DNA from: a virus
Direction: 5' to 3' (one strand)
IMG/VR virus record: IMGVR_UViG_3300020470_000032
Coordinates: 1-45,717 of that record
DNA: 45,717 nucleotides
Shown here: positions 34,264-38,982 of the stretch, one piece after another
How positions within the stretch are numbered: the first letter of the stretch is position 1
How the letters are laid out: each line of letters opens with the position of its first letter
The notes under the pieces: generated by a model
The model's input: only the letters and a program-made list of their open reading frames with translations
The model's database searches: none
Told to the model about the DNA's origin: nothing
Made by a program: the position numbers and the translations under genes

Positions 34264-34307
34264 ATTCCCTTTGACATGCATTATAATAGGTTCATACACA
34301 AGGGAAT
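34264..34307 (+). promoter_or_regulatory. Promoter plus inverted repeat that could mask the ribosome-binding site
   Basis: TATAAT (34282-34287) lies in the 17-base core ATTATAATAGGTTCATA (34280-34296), identical to that before cobS. Perfect 8-base arms ATTCCCTT (34264-34271) and AAGGGAAT (34300-34307) flank it, and the right arm contains the ribosome-binding AGGG five bases before the ATG. A transcript starting at this promoter would lack the left arm; one reading through from gp46 would contain both. Confidence 0.55.
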
Positions 34308-34309
34308 CC

Positions 34310-36499
34310 ATGCAGACAGTAAATTTAGAAGTCAAAGGAAATGTTGCAAAACTACTAGCTACTGAGAACTTAGTAGTAGAACACAAGAATGTTGAGACTG
34401 CATCATTTGATGTAGACAGACGTGTTTTGACTCTACCTAACTGGAAGAAGGCATCGGAACAAACCTTTGATCTACTGGTAGCACATGAAGTAGGTCATGC
34501 CTTATATACTCCTGCTGGAGAATGGGATGAGAAAGCACCCCATGATTTCATCAACGTCTGTGAGGATCCAAGAATTGAGAAGTTGATGAAGCGTAAGTAT
34601 GCTGGATTGAATAAGACATTTTATAATGGATATGCTGAACTTGATGAGGAAGACTTCTTTGATGTTGATTCTGTAGATCTTGATGAGATGAATCTTGCAG
34701 ATAGAATCAATCTTCATTTCAAAGTTGGTGCTTTTAGAGAGATTCCTTTTGAAGAGAAAGAGTTTCCTATCGTAGAGATGGTAGAAGATGCTGAGACTTT
34801 TGATGATGTATTGAATGCTGCTCAAGCATTATATAAGTATTGCAAAGAAGAGAAAGAGTCTAAGCAGAAAGAAGATGATTTAGAATCTCCTAATCTAAGT
34901 GGTGGTGGTTCTGGTAACAGTGATTCACATCCATTCTTTGATGAAGAATCAGATGGAGAAGGTCAAGAAGAAAATGGTGGTGGTAGTAATAGTAAAGGAG
35001 AGAAAGAATTCAGTGATGATATGACTGATGAGGAATTACTTGATGCACTTGATGCAGCAGGTGGTAAGCAAGGTTCTACTGAACCAGAAGTAACTACTCA
35101 AAGATCAGCAGATAGACGTATTGAAGAACTATCAAGAGAAGATTCTTATGAGAATAGTTATGTTGAAGTTCCCCAAGTAAAGTATGATGATGTTGTATAT
35201 TCTTATGAGAAAGTACAGGAAGATTTATCAGAGCACTTTGCAATCTATGAGAATAGTACAGATCCTTTGAGTCGTATACATGGTAAAGAAGTTCCTATCC
35301 TTAGTTACCCTGATAATGATCTTCGTGATTTCATGAGGAGTTCTTCAAAGGAAGTCAACTATCTTGTAAAAGAGTTTGAGATGAAGAAGTCTGCTGATGC
35401 ATATGCACGTGCTTCTGTTTCTAAGACTGGTGTATTAGATACAAGAAATCTCCATACTTATAAGTTCAATGATGACATCTTCAAAAAGATAACAACATTA
35501 CCTGATGGTAAGAACCACGGACTTGTATTTGTTCTTGATTGGTCTGGTTCAATGAGTACTTGCATCCATGATACTGTGAAGCAACTAATAAATTTAGTAT
35601 CATTCTGCAGAAAGGTAAAGATTCCTTTTGAGGTCTATGCTTTCATCAATCATTACTATGAGAATGAGGATGGTGATGTTGATTACTATGGTTACAGAAA
35701 TCATAGAGATAAGTGGCTTCATGAACGTAAGGAAGGTTTATTAGTTGTAGATTCTACTTTCAAACTATTGAATCTTATTAGTAGTCAAGCAAAGAAAAGA
35801 GATATTGATACTCAAATCAAAAACCTATGGAGAATGTCCTATCAGTATCAGTTACGTGGAGGATATAGTGTACCTCCTATCTACGGTTTAGGTGGAACAC
35901 CTTTGAATGAATCAATCGTTAGTTTACATACTATTCTTCCTCACTTCAAGAAAATTCATAGTCTTCAAAAGGTTCATGCAATTATTCTTACTGATGGTGA
36001 GGCAGCAGGTATGTCTAGATCAAGAAAGTATGATAGTGAATATGCATCATACCATGAAGAAGGTATAGGAAGAACAAGTTTAGATTGGAATACTTATCTT
36101 CGCAATCGTAAGACTGGACGTACCTATCAATTGAATGGACATTATGGTGCTACTGCATCTTTACTACAGAATCTAAGTGATACATATCCAGAGATCAATC
36201 TAATTGGTATTCGGTTATGTACCAGTAGAGATTTTGGTAATGCAATGCGTAATTATGTTGAGTATGAAGATAGGGATAAGGTTCATAAGGAGTGGAGAAA
36301 GCATGGATCTGTTGCCATGAAGGGTAAAGGATATGACTCTTTGTTCGCTATCTCTTGCAATTCTTTGGATAATGATGTAGAATTTGAAGTACAGGAAGAT
36401 GCGACTAAGGCACAGATCAGAAGTGCTTTCAAGAAGACCTTGAAGTCTAAGTCCATGAACAAAAAAATATTATCGGAGTTTGTAGACCTTGTTGCATAA
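34310..36499 (+). CDS. VWA-domain protein with HExxH-type metallopeptidase motif
   Basis: A 729-residue protein with two recognisable parts. The N-terminal part has AHEVGHALYTPAGEW (His59-Glu60...His63, a zinc metallopeptidase motif) and a downstream NVCEDPRIEKLM whose Glu85 could be the third ligand. A disordered acidic Gly/Ser linker (about 195-285) leads to a C-terminal von Willebrand A domain with MIDAS DWSGS (410-414) and TDGEAAG (about 561-567). Large VWA proteins work with MoxR/CobS-type AAA+ ATPases, and cobS lies one gene downstream. The ATG at 34310 is preceded by AGGGA; a TTG at 34271 lies within the promoter. Substrate unknown. Confidence 0.8.
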   Translation: MQTVNLEVKGNVAKLLATENLVVEHKNVETASFDVDRRVLTLPNWKKASEQTFDLLVAHEVGHALYTPAGEWDEKAPHDFINVCEDPRIEKLMKRKYAGLNKTFYNGYAELDEEDFFDVDSVDLDEMNLADRINLHFKVGAFREIPFEEKEFPIVEMVEDAETFDDVLNAAQALYKYCKEEKESKQKEDDLESPNLSGGGSGNSDSHPFFDEESDGEGQEENGGGSNSKGEKEFSDDMTDEELLDALDAAGGKQGSTEPEVTTQRSADRRIEELSREDSYENSYVEVPQVKYDDVVYSYEKVQEDLSEHFAIYENSTDPLSRIHGKEVPILSYPDNDLRDFMRSSSKEVNYLVKEFEMKKSADAYARASVSKTGVLDTRNLHTYKFNDDIFKKITTLPDGKNHGLVFVLDWSGSMSTCIHDTVKQLINLVSFCRKVKIPFEVYAFINHYYENEDGDVDYYGYRNHRDKWLHERKEGLLVVDSTFKLLNLISSQAKKRDIDTQIKNLWRMSYQYQLRGGYSVPPIYGLGGTPLNESIVSLHTILPHFKKIHSLQKVHAIILTDGEAAGMSRSRKYDSEYASYHEEGIGRTSLDWNTYLRNRKTGRTYQLNGHYGATASLLQNLSDTYPEINLIGIRLCTSRDFGNAMRNYVEYEDRDKVHKEWRKHGSVAMKGKGYDSLFAISCNSLDNDVEFEVQEDATKAQIRSAFKKTLKSKSMNKKILSEFVDLVA

Positions 36500-37235
36500 T
36501 AAAGATTGCTTAGAGTTACTCACAGAACTCGAAGATGAATCGGTGGATCTTGTTCTTACAGATCCACCTTATTTCATAGGGTTTGATGGTGGTAAAGGAT
36601 GGGATTCTCAATGGAAATCTGAAGAAGATTATCTTGAGTGGTGTCATGCATGGACTACTGAGTGTGTAAGAGTATTGAAACCAAATAGAATGATGGTTGT
36701 ATTTGGTACTCTGAAGACAGAAACCTTTTTGAAATATAAATTAGGTACAAGTCAGAATCCGTGGTTGACTCCACAGAATGAAATAGTATGGAGTTATAAC
36801 TGGGGTGGACGCAGTAAGACTAACTTTGCTAGGAAACATGAGTATGCATGGTGTTGGTCTAAAGGAAAAGATTTTCTATTCAATGCTGATGACATAAGAG
36901 TCGATAGAAAAGTTAGTATAAATATGAGGACAGGCAAACCTTACGATAAGGGAACTATCCCCACGTGTGTATGGGAAAAGAATAACCATACCACCAGTAA
37001 GGAATATGTCAATTGGCATCCGACACAAAAACCTTTGATGATATTAGATAGAATCATTAGGGGATATACAAATACAAATGATACTGTGTTGGATTGTTTT
37101 AGTGGTTCTGGATCAACAATGATCGCTGCTTTCAATAGTGGAAGAAAATTTATAGGATCAGAGATCTCAGAAGACTATTGTAATAGGTCAAGAAAAAGAT
37201 TTATTGAACTTGCACAGGCAAAGCTGCCAATTTAG
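36489..37235 (+). CDS. DNA methyltransferase, beta-type amino-methylase
   Basis: A 248-residue N6-adenine or N4-cytosine DNA methyltransferase. The catalytic DPPY is at 25-28 and the S-adenosylmethionine motif FSGSGST at 204-210, so the order is IV then I (beta class), with the specificity region between. The preceding WHPTQKP is typical of this group. No restriction nuclease is adjacent. The start is unusual: TTG at 36489, inside the end of the VWA gene (11-base overlap), with CGGAG ten bases upstream; no ATG fits before the DPPY motif. The recognition sequence cannot be read from the protein. Confidence 0.88.
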   Translation: MLHNKDCLELLTELEDESVDLVLTDPPYFIGFDGGKGWDSQWKSEEDYLEWCHAWTTECVRVLKPNRMMVVFGTLKTETFLKYKLGTSQNPWLTPQNEIVWSYNWGGRSKTNFARKHEYAWCWSKGKDFLFNADDIRVDRKVSINMRTGKPYDKGTIPTCVWEKNNHTTSKEYVNWHPTQKPLMILDRIIRGYTNTNDTVLDCFSGSGSTMIAAFNSGRKFIGSEISEDYCNRSRKRFIELAQAKLPI

Positions 37236-37246
37236 AAAGTGGTACA

Positions 37247-37290
37247 TGATCTATTGATCAGACCTCTTTTTAGATTATAATAGGTTCATA
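37247..37290 (+). promoter_or_regulatory. Host-type promoter for cobS with two GATC sites
   Basis: TTGATC (37254-37259), a 16-base spacer and TATAAT (37276-37281) form a sigma-70 promoter. The core ATTATAATAGGTTCATA (37274-37290) is identical to that before the VWA gene. Two GATC tetramers (37248-37251 and 37256-37259) lie at the -35 within TGATCtattGATCA. Confidence 0.7.
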
Positions 37291-37307
37291 AGAAACAAAC
37301 GACCTAA

Positions 37308-38378
37308 ATGACTTTCAAATCAACCGTGGACACAAACGACATTACTGACTTCATATCAGAAAAGTTTGGTAATGAATTCAATGCAGATGCTATACGTGAA
37401 GCAGCAGCAGAGTTTGGTCTAGGATATCCTACAGTACGTAAACGCCTTGGAAAATATAGAGTTAGCACTAACAAATATAGACTCACAGTCGAAGAAGCTC
37501 GTGAAGTATTTGAGAATCAGATTAAGAATACTGCACCTGTACAGCAGAATTTGGTCCCTGTCAAGGATGACAACTTTGTCAAATTTGGTAACTTCACAGA
37601 TCTCAAAAAGATACTTGCCTCTCGCCAGTTCTACCCTACGTTCATTACTGGCTTATCGGGTAACGGTAAAACCTATTCGGTGGAGCAAGCTTGTGCTCAA
37701 CTAAATAGAGAGTTGATCAGAGTAAATATAACAATTGAAACAGACGAGGATGATCTTATTGGTGGCTTTCGTCTTGTTGATGGGAATACTGTTTGGCATA
37801 ATGGACCCGTCACCGAAGCTTTGGAGAGGGGAGCTGTCCTCCTTTTAGATGAAATAGATTTAGCATCAAATAAGATCTTGTGTCTTCAGTCAATACTAGA
37901 AGGTACAGGAGTATTTCTAAAGAAGATAGGTAAGTTCGTGAGACCTGCTAAGGGATTCACTGTGGTTGCTACTGCCAATACAAAAGGTAAAGGATCTGAG
38001 GATGGTAGATTCATAGGAACAAACATCTTGAATGAAGCATTCCTTGAGAGATTCCCAATTACTTTTGAGCAAGCATATCCTTCAGTAAACATTGAAACTA
38101 AGATCTTGAATAAGATCTGTGATGACAAAGTGTTCTGTAAGAACCTTGCTGACTGGGCAGACATCATTCGTAAGACATTCTTTGATGGTGGTATTGATGA
38201 AGTAATCTCAACTCGTAGATTAGTTCATGTTATCAAAGCATATAATATCTTTGGTAAGAAAGAGAAAGCAATTTCATTCTGCTTGAATCGTTTTGATGAC
38301 GAGACAAAGCAATCTTTCCAAGAATTATATGATAAAGTAGATGCTGATGTGGAGTTCAAAAATGCATCTGTGGAATAA
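37308..38378 (+). CDS. cobS: CobS/MoxR-type AAA+ ATPase
   Basis: A 356-residue AAA+ ATPase of the type annotated cobS in T4-like cyanophages. Residues about 24-58 form a helix-turn-helix-like segment (AIREAAAEFGLGYPTVRKRL). Walker A is GLSGNGKT (115-122), Walker B LLLDEID (178-184), sensor region VATANTKGKG, and an arginine-finger region in NEAFLERFPITFEQAY. CobS is the ATPase of aerobic cobaltochelatase (vitamin B12); related MoxR ATPases act with VWA partners. No CobN is in the window. Its end overlaps pebS by 17 bases. A cobalamin role is conventional annotation, not shown by this sequence. Confidence 0.88.
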   Translation: MTFKSTVDTNDITDFISEKFGNEFNADAIREAAAEFGLGYPTVRKRLGKYRVSTNKYRLTVEEAREVFENQIKNTAPVQQNLVPVKDDNFVKFGNFTDLKKILASRQFYPTFITGLSGNGKTYSVEQACAQLNRELIRVNITIETDEDDLIGGFRLVDGNTVWHNGPVTEALERGAVLLLDEIDLASNKILCLQSILEGTGVFLKKIGKFVRPAKGFTVVATANTKGKGSEDGRFIGTNILNEAFLERFPITFEQAYPSVNIETKILNKICDDKVFCKNLADWADIIRKTFFDGGIDEVISTRRLVHVIKAYNIFGKKEKAISFCLNRFDDETKQSFQELYDKVDADVEFKNASVE

Positions 38379-38982
38379 TTATAAGTCAGTACTGTTTCGC
38401 ACCTTCCCCAATCTAAGATATGGGGAAGACTGGGCGAACTGGGAGTCTAAAGGAACTTCTCTTATAGCAAGGACATACACTAGTCCTCATATTATAAAAT
38501 CAAGAGAAGTAGATATCTTTAGTGCTAAGTCAAGTATCTACAACAACATCATCTATCCTAAGACTGGATCAAATCTTCCTTGTTTTGGTATGGACTTGAT
38601 GGGATTCTTTGAGAAGAAAGTCATTATCGTTTTTGATTTTCAACATCCAACAGAAAACTATTTGTTCTCTGTACCTGATCTTCCTAAACAAGAAGCTAAC
38701 ATTAGATTCTTTGAACCAGGAAATCATTTCTCAGAAAACATCTATGTTGTCAAGTGTACCTTTGATGAAGTTGATGACCACCTACCTATGTTTGAAAAGT
38801 ACTTGACTACTTACAAATCTATGCTAGAATCGAGTGTACCTACAGGTGAAGACACTACTGTCTATAAAGACTTTGATAGGTATATGAAAGACCTAGATCC
38901 TGTAGGAGGTTATCTTACTGGAAAATTTGGTAAGGAAAGAGCAGAGTCTCTTGTCAATGATTTTTTATTCAACTATGGTTAA
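38362..38982 (+). CDS. pebS: Phycoerythrobilin synthase PebS (ferredoxin-dependent bilin reductase)
   Basis: A 206-residue ferredoxin-dependent bilin reductase close to the phage enzyme PebS, which reduces biliverdin IXalpha to phycoerythrobilin in two steps. Matching blocks are YPKTGSNLPCFGMDLMGFF, KKVIIVFDFQHPTENYLFSV, FFEPGNHFSENIYVVKC, and the C-terminal PTGEDTTVYKDFDRYMKDLD then PVGGYLTGKFG. Asp78 (FGMD) and Asp179 (LDP) are 101 apart, the same spacing as the catalytic Asp105/Asp206 I recall for PebS of P-SSM2. The ATG at 38362 has GGAG seven bases upstream and lies inside cobS. The host PebA/PebB two-enzyme route or PcyA is less likely. Confidence 0.92.
   Translation: MHLWNNYKSVLFRTFPNLRYGEDWANWESKGTSLIARTYTSPHIIKSREVDIFSAKSSIYNNIIYPKTGSNLPCFGMDLMGFFEKKVIIVFDFQHPTENYLFSVPDLPKQEANIRFFEPGNHFSENIYVVKCTFDEVDDHLPMFEKYLTTYKSMLESSVPTGEDTTVYKDFDRYMKDLDPVGGYLTGKFGKERAESLVNDFLFNYG

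Follow-up and report, generated by a model that had tools for sequence, protein, structure and literature searches.

The DNA studied here, a 45,717-base IMG/VR virus record of T4-like cyanophage type (IMGVR_UViG_3300020470_000032; hereafter the window), encodes a VWA-domain protein and, downstream of it, a CobS-branch AAA+ ATPase. We find that the VWA protein has a predicted zincin-type metal site that is invariant among its cyanophage homologues and that the two genes travel together in marine cyanomyoviruses. The evidence favours a metallopeptidase MoxR-vWA reading of the pair over a cobaltochelatase (CobST) reading, and we put the probability that the pair acts as an ATP-dependent remodeller/metalloprotease ahead of virion assembly at roughly 60%. 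In such a machine, the AAA+ ring would be the motor and its partner an adaptor whose VWA domain, with its metal ion-dependent adhesion site (MIDAS), docks on the ring, a flexible acidic linker leading from it to a zincin-type domain with a predicted zinc site (H59, E60, H63, and D86). ATP hydrolysis would drive the remodelling or unfolding of a target protein, to be cut by the metalloprotease domain. As the setting, replication or recombination of DNA or takeover of the host, ahead of virion assembly, would be likely: gp46/47 flank the genes on one side and the clamp/clamp-loader genes on the other, and late promoters are lacking. An earlier note on this stretch had proposed a two-component AAA+-VWA machine, an idea supported by the tests of co-occurrence and ligand integrity described below, neither of which refuted it. 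The AAA+-VWA pair, its core status, and the dispute over its naming were already in print in 2021 (PMC8651126, PMC7824862).

The VWA protein combines an invariant predicted metal site with a zincin-like predicted fold

Alignment of the cyanophage homologues revealed that H59, E60, H63, N82, E85, D86, R88, and E90 are invariant in 133 of 133 sequences, and selection therefore appears to keep the complete metal site; the protein thus passed the check, proposed with the earlier note, that metal ligands be intact across homologues. The MIDAS residues D410, S412, S414, T530, and D562 are invariant in a 55-member aligned subset and, together with the VWA fold, give the protein the VWA domain with MIDAS that is expected of a CobT. 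AlphaFold2 modelled the whole protein with a mean predicted local distance difference test score (pLDDT) of 81.8, leaving the acidic linker unstructured, and the N-domain alone (residues 1-195) with a pLDDT of 92.1; the HExxH motif sits within helix 50-66 of the N-domain model. The top PDB folds for this model were zincins, namely selecase (probability 1.00), ArdC, and IrrE/PprI, at Foldseek E-values of 0.03 or more. With the full model, the first-ranked structure was a chain of the NorQD complex (9qhe_G, E = 1.5e-3), matched through the VWA domain only. The window protein had no significant Pfam match, PF13203 (DUF2201) included, and a PDB profile search with the VWA family returned low-complexity matches only. 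In Pseudoalteromonas phage XG4 (L162:3685-5927; record marked unverified), two genes in swapped order encode the VWA part and the HExxH part separately.

To which residue the third zinc ligand should be assigned was judged from representatives of many phage lineages. D86 is present in every HExxH-positive representative; most of the HExxH-negative ones have Q, T, S, or E in its place (S in the Nican01-type protein, E in that of an Acinetobacter plasmid, and T or Q in four aligned cellular CobT) and keep E85. E85 in fact persists throughout the representatives, except for a valine in the HExxH-positive ICP2. Since D86 tracks HExxH whereas E85 does not, the pattern of substitution would make D86 the better candidate.

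Several related phage lineages have lost the catalytic site, and cellular CobT lacks it, with the AAA+-VWA core kept in both, as would be expected of a pure remodeller, whose zincin-like fold binds only metal or a partner and which rearranges complexes without cutting. We consider this improbable for the cyanophage proteins: a purely structural zinc site has no need of E60, which none of the 133 homologues has lost.

The pair is related to, and set apart from, the cobaltochelatase subunits

The AAA+ protein matched PF07728 (AAA_5) at 63.2 bits against a cut-off of 22 (E = 3.5e-17), which bears out its earlier description as a CobS-type AAA+ with Walker motifs at 37308 and places it among the MoxR/CobS-type AAA+ proteins. 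It matched CobS in the PDB (9ujv) at E = 3.8e-19 and failed the CobS model TIGR01650, with 73.1 bits against a cut-off of 558.55. In a tree against MoxR ATPases, it fell on the CobS side (87/83). The cyanophage proteins formed their own clade with those of phages of Pelagibacter and Ochrobactrum (98/96) and cellular CobS lay elsewhere (100/100), on long branches that leave the deeper forks unsure. Because the tree puts the cyanophage AAA+ outside cellular CobS, a recent capture of bacterial cobS by cyanophages appears unlikely. A helix-turn-helix domain at the AAA+ N terminus was considered and rejected, the Pfam matches being weak and the conservation poor. The AAA+ partners in phage-plasmid pairs (L169:5578-6810; L251) start with a zinc-finger-like CxxC...H-rich stretch, CKWCGKSFHHLKSH.

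The window VWA protein matched none of the CobT models TIGR01651, PF06213, and PF11775. PF06213 was reached by 3 of 55 relatives, with a best E-value of 0.029; a Klebsiella phage relative, which has HEVGH, scored 81 bits with PF06213 and 334 bits with PF11775. HExxH was found in 0 of 25 cellular CobT, in which the HEVGH position reads like AFALR. Homology between the N-domains emerged through an intermediate: hhalign matched the cyanophage N-domain to that of the phage-plasmid proteins (96%, E = 3.2e-9) and the latter to that of cellular CobT (95%, E = 4.4e-8), with column-shuffled controls at 0.7% or less. From these comparisons we infer that the CobT N-domain may be a zincin that has degenerated; no paper stating this was found in the literature searched.

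According to a published proposal, viral CobST would hijack the CobN of the host; the paper treats cobST as core to cyanophages and calls the peptidase annotation of their cobT a mistake (PMC8651126). The gene pair is the one studied here. In this proposal, the pair would be the two motor subunits of the aerobic cobaltochelatase, which with host CobN would raise cobalamin for nucleotide synthesis. The position of the AAA+ protein in the tree, its match to CobS in the PDB, and the distant homology of the VWA N-domain to that of CobT speak for it, as do the hosts: within the Prochlorococcus/Synechococcus family, CobN scored over its cut-off in 69 of 81 genomes and CobT in 0 of 81, so that a viral CobST would meet CobN without CobT. 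The same counts bear on the earlier argument that no CobN is present, which holds for the phage window but carries little weight, because most Prochlorococcus/Synechococcus genomes carry CobN. We nevertheless regard the proposal as unlikely, since the cyanophage VWA protein fails all three CobT models, the AAA+ protein lies far below the TIGR01650 cut-off in a clade apart from cellular CobS, and the metal site behind the dismissed peptidase label never varies here and is missing from cellular CobT. Relatives also occur in 229 Escherichia and 348 Klebsiella records of a plasmid collection, and plasmids of both genera carry pairs with intact HExxH, although the CobN model had no match in E. coli, represented by one of 14 control genomes. 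ChlI/ChlD, if in the hosts, may already serve CobN. The earlier doubt about a B12 label for cobS thus gains support from the failed TIGR01650 test, the 25 of 25 CobT without HExxH, the D86 pattern, and the absence of CobN in E. coli. For the cyanophages alone, a CobN-dependent chelatase is possible, because most hosts carry CobN and none tested carries CobT. In another control genome, that of Caulobacter vibrioides, the CobT model matches and the CobN model does not, a hint that cellular CobST may also occur without CobN.

The two genes co-occur in the replication/recombination module without late promoters

A tblastn search of 50,697 phage records found the VWA protein in 463 and the AAA+ protein in 777. 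In marine cyanomyoviruses the number of records was the same for each gene (Synechococcus 365, "Cyanophage" 61, and Prochlorococcus 24; counts, not record lists, were compared), and asking whether cobS occurs without the VWA protein thus did not refute the two-component idea. At the 135 IMG/VR loci with both genes, the VWA gene comes first on the same strand in every case. Of the 23 loci at which one gene was found, most break off shortly after it; in four, 1.2-2.5 kb remain on the side where the partner would lie. Absence of the partner is not established in these four, because loci with both genes can have gaps just as long. Some AAA+ relatives have no recognised VWA partner: in Staphylococcus kayviruses, a DUF7192 gene adjoins them. 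In Staphylococcus and Acinetobacter phages (L163:6936-7781; L167:6832-7725), a DUF7192 protein of unknown function follows a related AAA+ in place of the VWA protein.

Upstream of the pair lies gp46 (70 of 74 loci with enough flank) and downstream gp45 or gp44 (59 of 65). Where the pair occurs in other phages or in plasmids, it adjoins dnaE, sigma factor, primase, or recombinase genes. The pair thus belongs to the replication/recombination module, and it lacks late promoters. A 16-nucleotide sequence, TTATAATAGGTTCATA, occurs in exactly two copies in the window, ending 13 and 17 nucleotides before the ATGs of the two genes, with about 0.0002 exact copies expected from base composition; the shared promoter core described earlier is therefore an exact repeat found nowhere else in the window. 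TATAAT lies within 90 nucleotides upstream of the VWA orthologues at 55 of 127 loci (6.2 expected from shuffles) and of the AAA+ orthologues at 98 of 135 (8.7 expected), the loci being related and not independent. The late motif NATAAATA (PMC2984593) was found upstream of 0 of 127 VWA and 1 of 135 AAA+ orthologues, below chance level, and in the window it lies ahead of the genes for tail sheath, scaffold, and tail tube. Because TATAAT is present and the late motif nearly absent, the promoter class argues for expression ahead of the structural genes. Published expression timing of cobS or transcript data were not found in the literature searched. Many cyanophage loci (e.g., L081, L105, and L004) have, upstream of both genes, a terminator-like hairpin and T run ending a few bases before TATAAT, as if hairpin and TATAAT formed one terminator-promoter module.

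These observations bear on a role in virion assembly, to which the MoxR-vWA pair with metallopeptidase of jumbo phages (group 2.2) has been assigned (PMC7824862). The pair studied here would then be a chaperone-protease that folds and cleaves structural proteins. By architecture the two are alike, with a metallopeptidase fused to vWA in the same order and an adjoining MoxR-type AAA+ gene, and a MoxR-vWA pair of an archaeal virus is needed for tail assembly, as cited in the same paper. Here, however, the pair belongs to cyanomyoviruses, its neighbours are replication genes and not structural ones, and its promoters are of a non-late class, the late motif that precedes the window's structural genes being missing from all but one of the orthologues. 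An assembly role is on these grounds quite unlikely.

Points that weigh against the proposed function, and its wider meaning

Several points weigh against an ATP-dependent remodeller/metalloprotease acting before virion assembly. The Foldseek E-values of the zincin-domain matches all exceed 0.001. The pair persists where HExxH is degenerate (in the Nican01-type, the Acinetobacter plasmid, and BUCTxx99), and its core task can therefore not always need proteolysis; BUCTxx99, without HExxH, moreover retains an aspartate at D86, one exception to the covariation among the representatives. The direct profile match between the cyanophage and CobT N-domains is weak (9%), the link running through the phage-plasmid proteins. 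As to timing and substrate, the evidence from promoter class and neighbours is indirect, and we found no biochemical evidence on the pair.

More broadly, and only tentatively, phage "CobST" pairs may be ATP-dependent AAA+-VWA metalloproteases acting on replication/recombination complexes, with the CobT N-domain a catalytically dead descendant or sister. If so, cobaltochelatase would be a repurposed protease-remodeller and the marine-phage "cobS auxiliary metabolic gene" a misnomer; the dead-zincin reading of CobT would offer a testable account of the origin of a cobaltochelatase subunit. Marine cyanomyoviruses carry cobS as a core gene (PMC3037559). It has been classed with the vitamin B12 genes, and an influence on nucleotide synthesis has been suggested for it (PMC2984593). 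Should its partner be an active metalloprotease, inferences on viral influence on ocean B12 would need revision, and very abundant viruses would have an uncharacterised ATP-dependent protease in their replication module.

The methyltransferase is a local insertion

Between the two genes of the window lies a TTG-start beta-class DNA methyltransferase, as had been noted earlier; the assignment is borne out by PF01555 and by the motif order, DPPY before FxGxG, and the gene shares 11 nucleotides with the end of the VWA gene. It had been left open whether this gene is an insertion or a functional third member, and the first of these holds. A methyltransferase lies in the gap at 3 of 135 IMG/VR loci (L001, L002, and L081), in S-BM3 (L159), and in the window (L160) only. 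The gap ranges from 54 to 3,780 bases (150 or less at 62 of 135 loci), and a homologue of 64-66% lies downstream of cobS in L133 and L148. Among GenBank phages, a close homologue was found in S-BM3 only (at E 1e-30). The methyltransferase is, by its distribution, evidently a passenger at a variable site, and a three-gene system, for which its conservation in the closest relatives (S-BM3, L001, L002, and L081) might speak, is highly improbable given the 132 of 135 IMG/VR gaps that lack it.

Comparison with known AAA+-VWA systems

Cobaltochelatase CobS/CobT (TIGR01650/TIGR01651; PDB 9ujv, 9uka) likewise consists of an AAA+ protein and a VWA protein with an acidic linker, with the N-domain homology given above; it differs in that the curated hidden Markov model cut-offs are not reached by the phage proteins and that cellular CobT lacks HExxH and mostly D86. 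The "porphyrin biosynthesis" pair of SSU5-type phage-plasmids (PHROG 1576) shares HEV[GA]H in a CobT-like protein with the AAA+ gene directly downstream, followed by dnaE, whereas its Klebsiella member passes PF06213 and PF11775 and its AAA+ N terminus is CxxC/H-rich. Bacterial MoxR with DUF2201 (PF13203, metallopeptidase-VWA) has the same architecture, and its HEVSH...NIAADxEIN resembles HEVGH...NVxEDxRIE. As a homologous cellular counterpart, DUF2201 was rejected: hhalign gave only 26%, limited to HExxH, and homology was not established. In the actinobacterial DUF2201-type proteins L265 and L266, HHxGH replaces HExxH, so that loss of the site recurs there. NorQ-NorD and RavA-ViaA also pair a VWA adaptor with an AAA+ ring, and NorQD was the first fold match, but that match is confined to the VWA domain and the substrates are other ones. 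We know of no zincin domain in either machine.

Features of the locus and minor observations

The features are listed in Table 1. The reading of 34310-36499 confirmed the earlier description: a protein of 729 residues that carries HEVGH and, at its C terminus, a MIDAS VWA domain. The start given for it then, 34264, takes in the promoter, and the coding start is the ATG at 34310.

Table 1. Features of the AAA+-VWA locus, in window coordinates
Feature	Position	Strand	Basis or remark
Shared promoter core TTATAATAGGTTCATA, copy 1	34281..34296	+	-10 TATAAT at 34282-34287, 28 nucleotides before ATG
Predicted metalloprotease-VWA adaptor protein, 729 residues, PHROG 459 "peptidase"	34310..36499	+	phrog_459, E = 5e-259
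N-terminal zincin-like domain, residues 1-192	34310..34885	+	AlphaFold2 of residues 1-195
HEVGH, residues 59-63	34484..34498	+	Predicted roles: H59 and H63 zinc-binding, E60 general base
D86, predicted third zinc ligand (HExxH-x22-D), in conserved N82-x-x-E-D-x-R-I-E90 helix	34565..34567	+	Assignment inferred
Acidic linker, predicted disordered, residues 193-255	34886..35074	+	Model pLDDT < 50
MIDAS motif DWSGS (410-414) of VWA domain	35537..35551	+	Completed by T530 and D562
Beta-class DNA methyltransferase, local insertion, not core part	36489..37235	+	PF01555, E = 3.5e-48
Shared promoter core TTATAATAGGTTCATA, copy 2	37275..37290	+	TATAAT at 37276-37281, 32 nucleotides before ATG
CobS-branch AAA+ ATPase, 356 residues, PHROG 249	37308..38378	+	phrog_249, E = 7.8e-134
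Walker A GLSGNGKT, AAA+ residues 115-122	37650..37673	+	Kept across 128 AAA+ homologues
Walker B LLLDEID, AAA+ residues 178-184	37839..37859	+	LLLDE at least 97% conserved

The window also encodes terminase, tail sheath, portal, scaffold, major head, tail tube, and the late sigma factor gp55. A genome scan for close relatives gave 19 loci, mostly in marine bins and some on long, possibly phage contigs, none of them shown to be cellular; among viral contigs, the Ochrobactrum and ICP2-type proteins, used as queries, retrieved no relatives. Cyanophage-type VWA genes were seen in Nonlabens xiamenensis (L177, 188-kb contig) and Prochlorococcus AG-418-C09 (L173, 189-kb contig), and these contigs may be phage binned or co-sorted with the host. 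Downstream, a gene at 38341-38982 overlaps the end of the AAA+ gene and matches PHROG 7278, ferredoxin oxidoreductase; its label in S-BM3 is phycoerythrobilin.

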